This document shows, piece by piece, positions 25,780-33,401 of a DNA stretch of 64,000 nucleotides; within the stretch, counting starts at the first letter, position 1; the number at the start of each line of letters is the position of its first letter. The stretch lies in NCBI RefSeq assembly GCF_009696315.1, contig NZ_VUMG01000002.1, positions 372,001-436,000 of the forward strand, read 5' to 3'. Position numbers and translations under genes: made by a program. The stretch is from Cutibacterium porci (lineage in GTDB: Bacteria > Actinomycetota > Actinomycetes > Propionibacteriales > Propionibacteriaceae). Under the pieces are notes generated by a model. The model saw only the letters and a program-made list of their open reading frames with translations, did no database searches and had not been told where the DNA came from.

Positions 25780-27008
25780 ACGATGTGCCGATCCTCGCCG
25801 AACCTCGCGAGGGAGTGCCGCCGGTCGTTAACTCTCGTGAAGGCCTAATACGCACCTGTCAGGCCCTCCGTCATGGCCACGGACCAGTCGCCATCGACAC
25901 TGAACGTGCTCACGGGTTTCGCTATAGTCCCCGAGCCTGCCTCATCCAGTTGCGCCGAGAGGGATCGGGAACTCACCTTGTCGATCCCCTCGCGCTCGGT
26001 GGAGCTATCGGCCTCAAACCACTCGCCGACGCACTGGCTGGAACTCAGTGGATTCTCCACGCGGCCCCCCAGGACATGCCCTGCCTTGCTATGGATGATT
26101 TACGCCCTAGTGACCTTTTTGACACTGAATTGGCAGGTCGCCTTCTCAACCTACCAAGGGTCGGATTAGGACCGATGGTCGAGCGTTATTGTGGTGTAAC
26201 TCTGCTGAAAGAGCACTCCGCCTCTGATTGGTCGCGTCGACCAATCCCCCATGATTGGTTGGTGTACGCAGCTCTTGACGTCGAACTCCTCAATGATCTC
26301 AAAGACAAGACCCTCGAGGATCTTCGCAACACCGGAAAACTAGAGTGGGCTCGTCAGGAATTCGCCCACCTTGTTGAGGTCGCCGCAGGCTTGCCCAGTG
26401 AGGAACCGGGCGTCAATCCGAAGCGTTGGCGCAGGATCAGCCATATCGGTGATATTCGCAGTCGGGCTGGACTGCAATTAGCGCATGATTTGTGGCTAGC
26501 GCGAGAGAATCTTGCCCACGACCTCGACATTGCACCCGGTCGTGTGCTCCGTGACGACGTCTTGATAGCTGCGGCCCGTCGCTGCGACCGCACCGTCAAC
26601 GTTGATGCCAACACAATCCTGGCCATGAAAGGATTTCGCCACAGGGAAGCAAAAAAGCACCGCTCAACGTGGGTCGATGCAATCAATCACGCACGGGGCG
26701 TATCGCCGCAGCAGTACCCGCCGTTGCGAGAGCCATCCTCGGCTATCCCCCATCCCCGCTCATGGCAGCACCATCACCCGAAGCAGGCGGCGCGGTGGTC
26801 GGCCGTCAGACCAGCCGTCAACGACGTGGCCGCTCAGTATGACGTTCCTCCCGAAAACCTCTGTACACCAGCATGGCTGAGGCAGTTTGCCTGGCAGCCT
26901 CCCGAGGACTGTTCAGTCCAAGGGGTCGACGCATTTCTGGCTGATCTCGGCGCACGGCCATGGCAACGAGAGATTCTCTCCGATGTGCTGTCCACAACGG
27001 CGCTATGA
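25776..27008 (+). CDS. rnd: Ribonuclease D family 3'-5' exonuclease
   Basis: A 410-residue RNA exonuclease. The DEDD domain occupies about residues 20-200: VAIDTERAHGFRYSPRACLI (Exo I, D and E), LHAAPQDMPCL (Exo II) and VYAALDVELL (Exo III, with Tyr). One HRDC domain follows at about 220-300. Such enzymes trim tRNA and other stable RNA 3' ends. The GTG start overlaps the DUF3000 stop (GTGA). The last 6 bp overlap the dxs stop region on the opposite strand, leaving no room for a terminator. Confidence 0.92.
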   Translation: MNDVPILAEPREGVPPVVNSREGLIRTCQALRHGHGPVAIDTERAHGFRYSPRACLIQLRREGSGTHLVDPLALGGAIGLKPLADALAGTQWILHAAPQDMPCLAMDDLRPSDLFDTELAGRLLNLPRVGLGPMVERYCGVTLLKEHSASDWSRRPIPHDWLVYAALDVELLNDLKDKTLEDLRNTGKLEWARQEFAHLVEVAAGLPSEEPGVNPKRWRRISHIGDIRSRAGLQLAHDLWLARENLAHDLDIAPGRVLRDDVLIAAARRCDRTVNVDANTILAMKGFRHREAKKHRSTWVDAINHARGVSPQQYPPLREPSSAIPHPRSWQHHHPKQAARWSAVRPAVNDVAAQYDVPPENLCTPAWLRQFAWQPPEDCSVQGVDAFLADLGARPWQREILSDVLSTTAL

Positions 27009-28904
27009 GTCTCGGCCTCCTGTGCGTCCCTCGTCACCCAGTTGGGCCATGAACTCTCTGACAGCTTCAGCAATCCCCTGAGCGTCTAGACCAAGCTCAG
27101 ACATGATCGCCGAGCGCGAATCGTGATCGAGGTAACGCTGCGGGATTCCGAGATTGCGTATCGGACGCCACACACCTCGCTGCGACAGCACATCAGCCAG
27201 GTGAGATCCAAGTCCGGAAATAACCAGCCCATCCTCGACGCTGACGATTGCGCGAGCCTTCGTGGCCTCCGCTATGAGCCCCGTGCACACGGGCAAGGAC
27301 CACCTCGGGCTGACGACGCGAATCGGGACGTCGAGTTGCTCTGCCGCAGTGAGGGCCTCGGCGCACAGCTGACCGTGTGCCACAAGAAGAATCCCGTTCT
27401 CGGGACCCTCACGCAGTACGTCGAGGCCATCATGGGACGCGACAACACGAATATCGTCGGGCATCGGGTCCTTGGAATACCGGATGACAGTTGGACGATC
27501 GTCAATGTCGACAGCCTCGTTGAGTACGGACACAAGGTGCTGACGGTCCCGCGGGGCCGACAGCATGAGGCCAGGGACAATGCCGCACATCGCCAGATCC
27601 CACATGCCGTTGTGAGATGCGCCGTCGGTTCCAGTGATACCAGCCCGGTCCAGCACTATCGTCACACCCGCGTGGTGTAAACCGGCATCCATGAGGAGTT
27701 GGTCAAAAGCGCGATTGAGGAAGGTGGAATAGAGGGCTACGACCGGGTGTAGGCCTGCAGCGGCCATGCCAGCAGCAGACGTGACCGCATGCTGTTCAGC
27801 GATGCCGACATCGAGAACTCGATCGGGGTGACGGGCTGCGAACGGCGCTAGGCCGACAGGATGAAGCATGGCCGCGGTCACGCCGACAATGTCAGGACGC
27901 CTCTCCCCCAGCTCAACCATGGTGCCAGCAAAAGCCTGAGTCCACGAAGCGCCACCGGATGCCTTGAGTGAGGCACCGGTAACTGGGTCGATCTTTCCGA
28001 CCGCGTGGAAATGATCCTCCTCATTCGCCTCGGCAGCAGCAAATCCCTTGCCCTTGGTCGTCATGACGTGGACGATGACGGGATGGCCGTAACGCTTGGC
28101 AAGTTCGAGGGCTCGTTCGACAGAGGAAACATCGTGACCATCAACCGGGCCGAGGTACTTGATACCAAGATCGGAAAAAATCCCATTGCCGATGAGCGCG
28201 TCTTTGACACCCGCTTTTGCAGCGTGCATCAGACCAAATACCTGTTTGCCGAGCGGCTTGTCAGTGACGTGCCGCTTCATCCGGTCGAGAGCCTCCTCAT
28301 AGTGAGGATCAGTGCGGATAATGGCAAGCTGGTTGGCCAGACCCCCCACCGTCGGAGTGTACGAACGACCGTTGTCATTGACGACGATCACCAGATGGAG
28401 GTCTTGTTGATCAGCGATAGAATCCAGCGCTTCCCACGCCATTCCCCCCGTCAATGCTCCATCGCCAATGACGGCGACAACGGTGCGGTCTTCTCCCCGA
28501 GAGAGAAATCCCTTAGCCATGCCCTCAGCCCATGACAACGAGGTCGAAGCATGGGAGTTTTCCACCCAATCGTGCGCAGATTCCGCGCGACTGGGATACC
28601 CAGAAAGCCCGCCACGTTGGCGCAGCTTCTCAAAACCGTTGGCGCGCCCAGTCAAAATCTTATGGACGTAGCTTTGGTGTCCAGTGTCAAAGATGATGGG
28701 GTCGTGGGGAGAGTCAAACACCCGGTGCAGGGCGATCGTCAACTCGACGACGCCCAGATTCGGCCCAAGGTGGCCACCCGTACGTGACACCTTGTCTATA
28801 AGAAAGGTACGGATTTCCTCGGCGAGGTCCTCGGCCTGCTCAATGGTGAGTTTCCTCACATCGTCGGGACAGCCGATGTCGTCGAGAAGAGCCATACGTG
28901 CCAT
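27003..28904 (-). CDS. dxs: 1-Deoxy-D-xylulose-5-phosphate synthase
   Basis: A 633-residue thiamine-diphosphate enzyme that condenses pyruvate with glyceraldehyde 3-phosphate, the entry step of the MEP isoprenoid pathway. The TPP motif starts at GDGALTGGMAWEAL (residue about 150), the catalytic Glu is in IAEQHAVTSAAGMA, and DRAGITGTDGASHNG lies in the second domain. Full length. The ATG at 28904 has GGGGGAGG upstream; earlier in-frame codons would add 20 unconserved residues. A 255-bp leader region separates it from acnA; I looked for a TPP riboswitch in it and did not find the consensus. Confidence 0.95.
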   Translation of the reverse strand: MARMALLDDIGCPDDVRKLTIEQAEDLAEEIRTFLIDKVSRTGGHLGPNLGVVELTIALHRVFDSPHDPIIFDTGHQSYVHKILTGRANGFEKLRQRGGLSGYPSRAESAHDWVENSHASTSLSWAEGMAKGFLSRGEDRTVVAVIGDGALTGGMAWEALDSIADQQDLHLVIVVNDNGRSYTPTVGGLANQLAIIRTDPHYEEALDRMKRHVTDKPLGKQVFGLMHAAKAGVKDALIGNGIFSDLGIKYLGPVDGHDVSSVERALELAKRYGHPVIVHVMTTKGKGFAAAEANEEDHFHAVGKIDPVTGASLKASGGASWTQAFAGTMVELGERRPDIVGVTAAMLHPVGLAPFAARHPDRVLDVGIAEQHAVTSAAGMAAAGLHPVVALYSTFLNRAFDQLLMDAGLHHAGVTIVLDRAGITGTDGASHNGMWDLAMCGIVPGLMLSAPRDRQHLVSVLNEAVDIDDRPTVIRYSKDPMPDDIRVVASHDGLDVLREGPENGILLVAHGQLCAEALTAAEQLDVPIRVVSPRWSLPVCTGLIAEATKARAIVSVEDGLVISGLGSHLADVLSQRGVWRPIRNLGIPQRYLDHDSRSAIMSELGLDAQGIAEAVREFMAQLGDEGRTGGRDS

Positions 28905-29122
28905 CTTAGGACCTCCCCCGGTGACACGGGGTCTGCTTAGCGCTCGGTTTCGCCTCACGCTCACTATCTAGAGCAGCTTGCGCCCGAGCGTGGGTAGGGC
29001 CGCATCCCTCACACCGCTTCAGGAAGACGGATCCCCAGACGGAGGTTCAGCCAGCCGTAATGGCTAGAAAGCCACGCGCGCAGCGCCCCAGGGGAAAGGC
29101 GAGACACGCTTCACAACACAAC

Positions 29123-29159: not shown

Positions 29160-31826
29160 TCAGCTCTGCGCCATATTCCTCAACACATACTGCAAAATGC
29201 CCCCGTTGAGGTAGTACAGCCGTTCCCCTGGGGTGTCGATGCGCACGACCGCGTCGAATTCGACAGCCTTACCGCCGACGGCCTTGACGTGGGCCGTCTC
29301 CGGGATCGTCTCGTTGATCTTATCGACACCGGTAATCTCGAACGTCTCCTCGCCGGTCAGGCCAAGCGAAGCGGCTGACTGGCCTTCAGGGAACTGCAGC
29401 GGCAAGACACCCATTCCAATGAGGTTGGAGCGGTGGATGCGCTCGTAGCTTTCAGCAATGACCGCCTTGACGCCGAGCAACTGGGTGCCTTTGGCAGCCC
29501 AGTCTCGGGACGACCCAGACCCATATTCCTTGCCGCCCAAGACGATCAACGGGATACCCTGATCGCGGTAATTCACCGAGGCGTCGTAAACCGTGGTGAC
29601 GGGTCCATCAGCCCTGGTGAAATCGCGCGTGAAACCGCCTTCCGTGCCTGGGGCAAGTTGATTACGCAACCGAATGTTGGCGAAGGTTCCGCGCATCATG
29701 ACCTCGTGGTTGCCACGACGGGAGCCGTAGGAATTGAAGTCGCGACGCTCGACGCCGTGACCGGCCAGCCACTGGCCTGCCGGTGAATCGGCCTTGATAT
29801 TGCCCGCAGGCGAAATGTGGTCGGTTGTGACCGAATCGCCCAGCTTGAGCAGCACTCGGGCCCCGGTAATGTCGCCGACCGGCTCCGGCTCAGCCTTCAT
29901 ACCGTCAAAGATGGGCAGTTTGCGCACGTAGGTAGACGCCGGATCCCAAGCGAAGGTCTCGCCCTCTGGAGTGTCAAGTTCCTTCCAGCGCGGGCCACCA
30001 TCGAAGACGTCAGCGTAGCGCTCGGTATACATCTCAGCGGAGATAGACGATCCAACGATCTCCTCAATCTCCTTGGTGGAGGGCCACAAATCAGCCAAAC
30101 GAACCTCACGACCATCCGACGTGGTCGCGAGAACGTCGTTATTGAGGTCGATATCCATCGTGCCGGCAATCGAGTAGATGACGACCAGCGGTGGGCTCGC
30201 TAGGTAGTTCATCTTGACGTCGGGACTAATGCGACCCTCGAAGTTGCGGTTACCAGACAGCACAGCTGTGACGGCAAGATCATTGCCGTTAATGGCGGCC
30301 GAGACTTCAGGAATGAGCGGGCCGGTGTTGCCGATACACGTAGTACAGCCATAGCCGACAAGGTCGAATCCCATAGCGGCGAGGTGTTCAGAAAGCCCTG
30401 CGCGTTCAAAGTAGTCAGTAACAACCTGGGAGCCCGGGGCCAGCGACGTCTTGACCCACGGCTTCGGAGCCAGGCCCAACTCGTGAGCCTTCTTGGCGAC
30501 GAGACCGGCAGCAATCATGACGCTCGGGTTTGACGTGTTGGTGCATGAGGTGATCGCGGCCACCGTCACGGCGCCGTTGCGTAACTCGAAAGAGCGGCCG
30601 TCGGCCAAGGTCACGGGAACGGCTGCATCCGGGTTCGTGGTGTAGTCACCAACAGTTTTCTCGAAGGATTCCTTAGCCTCGGAGATGAGGATGCGGTCCT
30701 GTGGGCGCTTCGGGCCCGCGATAGAAGGCTTCACTGTCGAAAGATCGAGCTCCAGGTATTCGGAGTACTGGGGCTCACGCTGCGGGTCGTGCCACATCGT
30801 TTGCGCCTTGGCGTAGGCCTCGACGAGCTTGACCTGGGACTCGTCGCGACCAGTAAGGCGCAGGTAATCGAGGGTGACATCGTCGATCGGGAAAACAGCG
30901 ATGGTCGAGCCGTACTCAGGGCTCATATTGCCCAAGGTGGCGCGGTTCGCCAGCGGCACAGCAGCGACACCGGGGCCATAAAACTCGACGAATTTGCCAA
31001 CAACCTTATGCTCGCGCAGCATCTGGGTAATTGTCAGAACGAGGTCGGTAGCAGTAACGCCATCGGGCAGTTCCCCAGAAAGTTTGAAGCCGACCACACG
31101 CGGAACCAACATAGAGACGGGCTGACCAAGCATGGCAGCTTCGGCTTCAATACCACCGACGCCCCAGCCGACGACACCTAAACCGTTGACCATGGTGGTG
31201 TGTGAGTCGGTGCCCACACAGGTATCGGGGTACGCGACCTTGGTACCGTCCTCGTCGCGGACGAAGGTCACCCGAGCGAGGTGTTCAATATTGACCTGGT
31301 GAACGATACCGGTACCCGGCGGGACGACGCGGAAGTTCTCAAAAGCACTCTGCCCCCAACGCAGGAACTGGTAGCGCTCACGATTTCGCTGGTATTCGAT
31401 GTCCTTGTTCTGCTCAAAGGCTTCCGGAGTCCCGAAACGCTCAACGATGACAGAGTGGTCGATGACCATCTCCGCCGGGGATAACGGGTTGACCTTGCGG
31501 GGATCACCGCCGAGGTCTGCGACGGCTTCACGCATCGTCGCCAAATCGACAATGCAGGGCACACCGGTGAAGTCCTGCATGATGACGCGGGCCGGAGTGA
31601 ACTGGATCTCCTTGGACGGCTGAGCGTCGGCGTCCCAATGCCCCAACTCAGCGATCTGCTCAGCAGTGATATTGGCACCGTCCTCAGTGCGCAACAAGTT
31701 CTCAAGGAGAACTTTGAGGCTGTACGGGAGGTTGTCGGAACCGTCAATCTTGGTGATGTCGTAGATCTCGTAGGATTGGCCGTCGACGTCGAGGGTTCGC
31801 CTCGCGTTGAAGCTGTTGACACTCAT
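29160..31826 (-). CDS. acnA: Aconitate hydratase A
   Basis: An 888-residue iron-sulfur enzyme of the TCA cycle that interconverts citrate and isocitrate. The cluster ligands are in [12 protein letters not shown] and [12 protein letters not shown]; the swivel domain has [15 protein letters not shown] and [12 protein letters not shown]. Length and order match AcnA of actinobacteria. AGGAG precedes the ATG at 31826. A perfect 30-bp palindrome lies about 65 bp upstream, probably an operator; unlike in corynebacteria no acnR-type TetR gene follows acnA here. Confidence 0.96.
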
Positions 31827-31890
31827 GTGGACTCCTGACTGGTGGATGCAGACCTCATCATCTCGCGTCGAGTTCCGCTCATGTGGCAGA

Positions 31891-31920
31891 ACAAGGTATC
31901 TTGACGTCAAGATACCTTGT
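31891..31920. promoter_or_regulatory. Perfect 30-bp palindrome upstream of acnA
   Basis: ACAAGGTATCTTGAC is followed at once by its exact reverse complement GTCAAGATACCTTGT, giving two 15-bp arms with no spacer. The centre contains TTGACG in either direction. Between acnA and its likely promoter this looks like the site of a dimeric repressor or activator. Confidence 0.7.
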
Positions 31921-31935
31921 TACAAAGCCCATCCC

Positions 31936-31955
31936 AACTAAGGGAACACTTAGTT
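31936..31955. repeat. Short inverted repeat
   Basis: AACTAAG and CTTAGTT arms around a 6-nt loop, between the acnA promoter region and the small Cys-rich gene. It could be a weak terminator for that gene or a second regulatory site. Confidence 0.4.
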
Positions 31956-31966
31956 AGCGTTGACCA

Positions 31967-32218
31967 TTAGTCGACCCCCTCAAGTCGGGGATCCGTGCCC
32001 AACTCATCATCCTCAGCGATAGCCACAAGATTCGTTTCAGGCGGTGTGCTTACCTTCGCCCGCGCCGCACTCCTCGACTTCGCAAGCTCATCTCGTAAGG
32101 CATCGTCGCCCATGACGAGGTACACCAATCCGCAGTCTTGAGGGCCAGTCACGTACAGCTGACACAAACTGCACGGATCCCCAGGGCGCAACGGACATTT
32201 CGGAACTGGACCTGCCAT
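31967..32218 (-). CDS. Small Cys-rich protein (DUF6767-like)
   Basis: An 83-residue protein whose N-terminus reads CPLRPGDPCSLCQ and then GPQDCGLVYLVM, four Cys that could bind a metal; the C-terminal half is acidic and probably disordered. I recall the CPxRPGDPCxLC...GPQDC pattern from small actinobacterial proteins of no known function (DUF6767), so the family name is tentative. Its ATG begins one base after the stop of the RNA methyltransferase gene, so the two are co-transcribed and probably co-translated. Confidence 0.7.
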   Translation of the reverse strand: MAGPVPKCPLRPGDPCSLCQLYVTGPQDCGLVYLVMGDDALRDELAKSRSAARAKVSTPPETNLVAIAEDDELGTDPRLEGVD

Positions 32219-32219
32219 C

Positions 32220-33401
32220 TCAGACCTTCGGTTCTAAAACCGCAACGGCTTCAACGTGGTGAGTCATCGGAAAGACGTCAAATGCGCGAATTGAGCGCGG
32301 CGCATAGCCGTAACCGTCAAATAAGCGCACGTCGCGAGCCAGAGCGGCCGGATCACAGGCGACATGAGCGATCGCTCGGGGAGATGTCCGTGCTACAGCT
32401 TGGATGACAGCCTTACCCGCACCCTTTCGAGGCGGATCGAGCACCACTATATTGGCCTTAGTCGACATCCGGGGCAGCACCCGCTCCACACGCCCAGCGG
32501 TGAAACGGCCACCAGGTACGTTGCGTCGGGCCAGTGCCACCGCCTGACGCGACACCTCAATACCTCGAACTCGAACTCCGCGGTCTGCCAGTAGCCCCGC
32601 AAAGAGTCCAACACCGCAATACAGATCGAGCGCCTCGTCACCTTGATGGGGATTCAAGCCTTCGACGACCGCATCTGCCAACGCTTCAGCAGCCCCGGGA
32701 TGAACCTGCCAGAAACCTCCGGCCCCAACCTTCCACCGGCGCTGGCCAACATGGGCTGTCATCGTTTCGCCGCCAGAAACGAGTTGCCCATCTGCAATGA
32801 CGCTTACTTCTGGATCCTCCGTAAGGCAGCTGGTCACCATGACGATTGCTTGCTCAGCCGTCCGACACGCAGTTTCAGCAGCAGCACGCCCTGCCGGGTG
32901 CGCAATCGGGCAACCCCCCTGGGGAACCTGAACCAGGTCATGGCTGCGATGACGCCGCAGGGCTGGACGTTGGTTGAGGCTGCGATATTGCATACGCGTA
33001 CGCCAACCCAGACCGTCAGAGGATCCGTCAACAGCCTCCACCTTGCCCGACCACGTGATGCCAGCGAGACGGCTGAGTTGCTCGGCAACAACACGCCGCT
33101 TGAGTTCGCGTTGAAAACTGACGTCGACGTGCTGAAAGTCACACCCACCGCATTCTCCCGCCACTGGGCATGGCGCATCGACGCGATGCGAATCGGCCGA
33201 GATAATGTCGACGGCGTGCCCAAACCAGTGCGAGGCCTTCGACGTATCGGTCAGCCGGACTCGGACCTTCTCGCCCGGTAACGCACCGCGGACGAAGACA
33301 ACTCTGCCGTCGAGACGCGCCACGCAGTACCCACCGTGGGCGATATTGCCCATAACAAGATCGACCTCACCGGTCTGGGACGCATCAACGCAGTTCTGCA
33401 T
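32220..33401 (-). CDS. TrmA/RlmCD-family RNA (uracil-5) methyltransferase
   Basis: A 393-residue SAM-dependent RNA methyltransferase. An N-terminal TRAM-like domain (residues 10-65) is followed by iron-sulfur ligands in CPVAGECGGCDFQH plus a later Cys (GGCPIAHP), the SAM site LDLYCGVGLFAG and the catalytic motifs DPPRKGAG and HVACDPAALARD with the nucleophilic Cys. It methylates U in tRNA (position 54) or 23S rRNA; which one is not clear. The gene order matches Rv2689c next to a permease and two TrkA genes. No Shine-Dalgarno; TAGACT lies 7 nt before the ATG. Confidence 0.92.
   Translation of the reverse strand: MQNCVDASQTGEVDLVMGNIAHGGYCVARLDGRVVFVRGALPGEKVRVRLTDTSKASHWFGHAVDIISADSHRVDAPCPVAGECGGCDFQHVDVSFQRELKRRVVAEQLSRLAGITWSGKVEAVDGSSDGLGWRTRMQYRSLNQRPALRRHRSHDLVQVPQGGCPIAHPAGRAAAETACRTAEQAIVMVTSCLTEDPEVSVIADGQLVSGGETMTAHVGQRRWKVGAGGFWQVHPGAAEALADAVVEGLNPHQGDEALDLYCGVGLFAGLLADRGVRVRGIEVSRQAVALARRNVPGGRFTAGRVERVLPRMSTKANIVVLDPPRKGAGKAVIQAVARTSPRAIAHVACDPAALARDVRLFDGYGYAPRSIRAFDVFPMTHHVEAVAVLEPKV

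Follow-up and report, generated by a model that had tools for sequence, protein, structure and literature searches.

The aconitase gene acn of this Cutibacterium genome is preceded by a perfect 32-bp palindrome which, as judged from comparisons of sequence across the family Propionibacteriaceae and its class, is very probably the operator of a TamR-type repressor of the MarR family encoded elsewhere in the genome. The circuit is already known in kind, and a TamR-type operator at acn is both well supported and ordinary; the finding gives a central-metabolism gene of a human skin genus a regulator and a site that can be tested, and it is useful for annotation.

The palindrome and its surroundings

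The window, meaning the whole 64-kb stretch of DNA that was analysed, holds the following features around acn:

27003-28964: dxs, neighbour of acn, named by reading its translation
29160-31826, minus strand: acn, aconitate hydratase AcnA, 888 aa, passing the NCBIfam and Pfam aconitase cut-offs
31823-31861, minus strand: 12-codon upstream frame, its TGA stop overlapping the ATG of acn (ATGA)
31890-31921, no strand: perfect 32-bp palindrome AACAAGGTATCTTGACGTCAAGATACCTTGTT, putative TamR operator with genus-specific outer arms
31897-31914, no strand: 18-bp core TATCTTGACGTCAAGATA, the segment kept across family and class
31909-31914, minus strand: putative -10 element TATCTT, the first six core bases in the orientation of acn
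31932-31937, minus strand: putative -35 element TTGGGA, 17 bp before TATCTT
31970-32218, minus strand: gene for a small DUF6767 protein (Pfam E 8e-27), between the TrmA-like gene and acn
32220-33401: TrmA/RlmD-like gene, neighbour of acn, named by reading its translation

The two arms, AACAAGGTATCTTGAC and GTCAAGATACCTTGTT, meet in the window sequence with no spacer and no mismatch. The initial annotation had described a perfect palindrome of 30 bp about 65 bp before acn; its perfection and lack of a spacer stand, the true length is one base greater at each end, and 63 bases separate the palindrome from the start codon of acn (ATG at 31826). The TTGACG/CGTCAA core that had been pointed out is present as the CTTGACGTCAAG centre, and the judgement that chance origin is very unlikely agrees with an expectation, from base composition, of 2.2e-5 perfect palindromes with arms of at least 16 in the window, where the runners-up are two perfect palindromes of just 14 bp each. 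At up to three mismatches the 18-mer core has one match in the window (chance mean 0.01). The Cutibacterium palindrome consists of four CAAG/CTTG blocks in 8-bp steps, and its outer arms recur in five of seven same-genus genomes and partially in a sixth.

Inspection of the translations of the neighbouring frames found no regulator gene adjoining acn, in line with what had been claimed: the neighbours are dxs, the DUF6767 frame and the TrmA/RlmD-like gene. The DUF6767 gene is kept in several same-genus genomes. The TTG at 31910, listed as the acn start, falls within the palindrome and is not the homologous start. The 12-codon frame recurs with small changes in six of the seven same-genus genomes, the seventh having a different frame of 22 codons, and is possibly a coupled leader peptide, separate from the operator. 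Just upstream of the palindrome a second inverted repeat, AACTAAGGGAACACTTAGTT (31936-31955), overlaps the putative -35 element; it has one copy in the genome at up to two mismatches, is matched by similar repeats in several same-genus genomes, fits the consensus of the iron (DtxR) box poorly, and may possibly be a second operator.

Conservation of the site before acn

Lack of conservation in relatives had been named beforehand as an outcome that would speak against an operator; the site proved to be kept at 77 of the 87 acn copies in the family. These copies come from the 86 of 97 family genomes in which acn was located, the 11 genomes with no acn match at E<=1e-30 falling outside the count. 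The DNA upstream of each copy was scored, and the 77 copies carry the core with at most three mismatches at distances of 15 to 114 bp from acn; across the DNA scored, the reversed pattern always shows at least five mismatches. At up to two mismatches the core TATCTTGANNTCAAGATA occurs in 80/97 family genomes, and the backwards control pattern in 7/97. An alignment of the 77 sites has CG, TG, CA or TA at the centre in 76, and C in place of T at the sixth core base in 12. The site is missing at the divergent acn genes of two genomes that do have a TamR-like gene (G043, G060) and at the second acn copy of a further genome (G038).

Beyond the family, the site is found at up to one mismatch in 128 of 246 genomes of the class sample. 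Adjacency to acn was checked for 30 loci per search, and acn adjoins the motif in 22 of the 30 class loci inspected. At one class locus (L068) tam lies beside the motif, and at four others (L071, L083, L085 and L092) the motif stands between divergent tam and MarR genes, named by reading, with the methyltransferase of L092 passing the NCBIfam cut-off for trans-aconitate 2-methyltransferase. This placement points to TamR, the regulator of the trans-aconitate methyltransferase gene. One genus of the sample (g50), which we take to be Streptomyces-like, is uniform in this respect: TamR is present in 21/21 genomes with a divergent tam adjoining it at all 21 loci, the motif is found with at most three mismatches at 19 of these 21 tam/TamR loci, and TATCTCGACATCGAGATA lies upstream of 21 of the 22 acn copies.

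Some sites lie before other genes. At L067 the motif TATCTTGATATCAAGATA (1501-1518) precedes a PrpD/MmgE-like gene, named by reading, of a family to which 2-methylcitrate dehydratase and cis-aconitate decarboxylase belong; at L066 it precedes an MFS-like gene (also by reading), and the context of L091 is unclear. In genome G005 a TamR-like site (L048, 1501-1518) is flanked by an MFS-like and a Sir2-like gene, where it is possibly a further target or the site of another MarR protein. The sites at L048, L066 and L067 leave room for recognition of similar sequences by other MarR proteins.

The regulator and its co-occurrence with the site

The TamR relative of the window's genome is encoded on another contig and matches at E 8.8e-48, with 58% identity across 155 aa:

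G000:C1:836451-837005: tamR-like gene; it follows an ispE-like gene, and a TetR gene faces it

A similar TetR gene, identified by reading, also lies near tamR at L071. The protein scores above the cut-off for Pfam MarR_2 and MarR, and its nearest TamR relatives are records of named Cutibacterium and Propionimicrobium. A tree of 73 proteins groups it with named Cutibacterium species (100/99) and places it in the TamR clade, apart from the Streptomyces paralogues, with support that is moderate (93/89), under star level and drawn open. The SGTMT stretch of the helix-turn-helix region is invariant in an alignment of 60 TamR rows from which the Streptomyces paralogues and four other rows are excluded.

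Site and regulator occur together. In the family, 75 of 78 acn copies from genomes with TamR (E<1e-30) have the site, versus two of nine from genomes without it (Fisher p 7e-7). In the class, where a site anywhere in the genome was counted, acn-linked or not, it is present in 125/155 genomes with TamR (E<=1e-40) versus 3/91 others (p 3e-36), both p-values treating genomes as independent and ignoring shared ancestry; under a looser TamR limit of 1e-20 the counts are 125/176 and 3/70. Thirty of the 155 class genomes with TamR are without a one-mismatch site, and 12 of those 30 are Streptomyces-like genomes with a two-mismatch TCTCGA form. Two family genomes have a perfect site and a poor TamR match, G010 (71% complete, E 3.7e-6) and G012 (E 2.6e-5). 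The latter (L193) is 99% complete at 2.0 Mb, with its perfect site before acn and no clear TamR.

It is improbable that the palindrome serves another dimeric regulator, either a different MarR-family paralogue (PecS-like) or a TetR protein of the AcnR kind found in corynebacteria. G012 would fit such a reading, as would the 20 PF12802 matches in the window's own genome and the similar sites that precede other genes; yet the co-occurrence tracks TamR in family and class alike, the motif sits in tam/tamR intergenic DNA, and the best match to TamR among the other MarR hits of this genome has E 5.3e-11. A TetR/AcnR regulator at acn was rejected on reading the translations: no frame beside acn resembles TetR, and it is tamR that has a TetR gene as its neighbour. 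Among the candidates that the initial annotation had named, the MarR family is the one favoured, in its TamR type and by co-occurrence, and TetR/AcnR is not supported, no such gene being present at acn.

A TamR operator in this genome appears to have little company. In a scan of the 2.6-Mb genome the acn site was alone in matching the 16-mer with at most one mismatch, and the expectation that further targets would lie before TCA-cycle or fatty-acid genes was not borne out at that limit. There are eight two-mismatch sites (L002-L009), seven of them inside open frames of at least 150 aa; the eighth (L003) is in no such frame and is asymmetric. A wider regulon in this genome was rejected on these counts. 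A search for tam found none in the window's genome (best E 0.075), none in the seven same-genus genomes and, across the family, a match in just 12 of 97. The system is therefore classed as the acn arm of the TamR circuit, tam-less, and from the gene content tam seems not to be needed for this arm.

Promoter overlap and proposed mechanism

In the orientation of acn the core opens with the -10-like TATCTT, so that a bound repressor should block the promoter. TG stands at positions -3 and -2 before TATCTT in 52 of the 77 family sites and TA in 14, and the mirror-image CA behind the palindrome is seen in none of the 77; the one-sided TG fits an extended -10 element (TGnTATCTT) and puts the probable transcription start within the palindrome. 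In the window's own genome TG is absent from this position, and a promoter consensus scan of the acn upstream region under strict limits returned nothing over threshold. The earlier proposal, in which a dimeric factor acting in trans binds an operator that overlaps the promoter, is supported.

A hairpin in the transcribed acn leader, serving attenuation or transcript stability, is another conceivable role for the palindrome in place of a protein site, a reading we consider very unlikely. If transcribed, the region would fold into a stem of 13 bp (z -2.95; 4 of 200 shuffles do equally well), a fold that is unavoidable for any perfect palindrome, and only one arm would be transcribed if TATCTT is the -10 element. 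Searches of the leader for a known RNA family (Rfam, E up to 1) and for a terminator found neither. The motif also lies between the divergent tam and tamR genes, its distance from acn varies widely in the family, and the outer arms that lengthen the stem are seen in the genus only. Chance or a mobile-element remnant, with about 2e-5 such palindromes expected in the window and the site in the same place before acn across the family and much of the class, is a reading with nothing found in its favour, already refuted by the conservation and of negligible probability.

For the TamR operator, binding and repression are predicted from the position of the site, and the ligand is proposed by analogy with S. 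coelicolor, where TamR represses aconitase and citrate and trans-aconitate relieve the repression, according to a review (PMC5487221) and to PMC6391409. A TamR dimer on the 18-bp core would cover the -10 element and the probable acn start and keep RNA polymerase off. When aconitase is in short supply or has lost its iron-sulphur cluster, citrate and aconitate would build up, bind TamR and loosen it from the DNA, and acn would then be transcribed for as long as the block lasts.

A switch for aconitase known from a single Streptomyces species thus extends over much of the class, in Propionibacteriaceae usually without the methyltransferase from which TamR takes its name, and this spread makes citrate-based sensing of aconitase damage a candidate for a general actinobacterial mechanism. 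We put forward, as a tentative generalisation that we regard as somewhat less probable than its opposite, that control of aconitase and not of tam may be the core of TamR function, that TamR in Propionibacteriaceae, mostly tam-less, may persist as a dedicated sensor that reports aconitase failure to almost a single target, and that the operator of Cutibacterium may have grown to its 32 bp and accommodate more than one dimer, with a tiny frame coupled to acn behind it.

Comparison with known systems

Control of acn in Corynebacterium is exerted by AcnR, RipA and DtxR, AcnR being a TetR protein whose gene adjoins acn. These are likewise dimeric regulators that repress an acn promoter, and the present locus differs in having no AcnR-type gene beside acn. 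A literature search whose scope lay outside the primary TamR papers returned no paper linking TamR to Cutibacterium and, within the same scope, no match to the letters of the motif in four spellings; among the titles listed on Propionibacterium aconitase with MarR or with an operator or transcription regulator, none concerned acn control of this kind.

The urate-responsive MarR regulators HucR and PecS share a family with the TamR of this genome, which matches HucR at E 4e-9 (structure 2fbk, given as HucR in a figure legend of PMC12838073). PecS is encoded opposite pecM, and TamR answers to citrate and related compounds, not urate (PMC6391409).

The closest parallel is TamR of S. coelicolor, a PecS-like member of the MarR family that regulates tam and aconitase. 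The likeness lies in the clade of the gene and in the position of the motif in Streptomyces-like genomes, the regulator found here belonging to the same clade and its palindrome lying before acn. The two differ in that the present genome has no tam, its tamR follows ispE instead of standing opposite tam, and its single site is a 32-bp palindrome.
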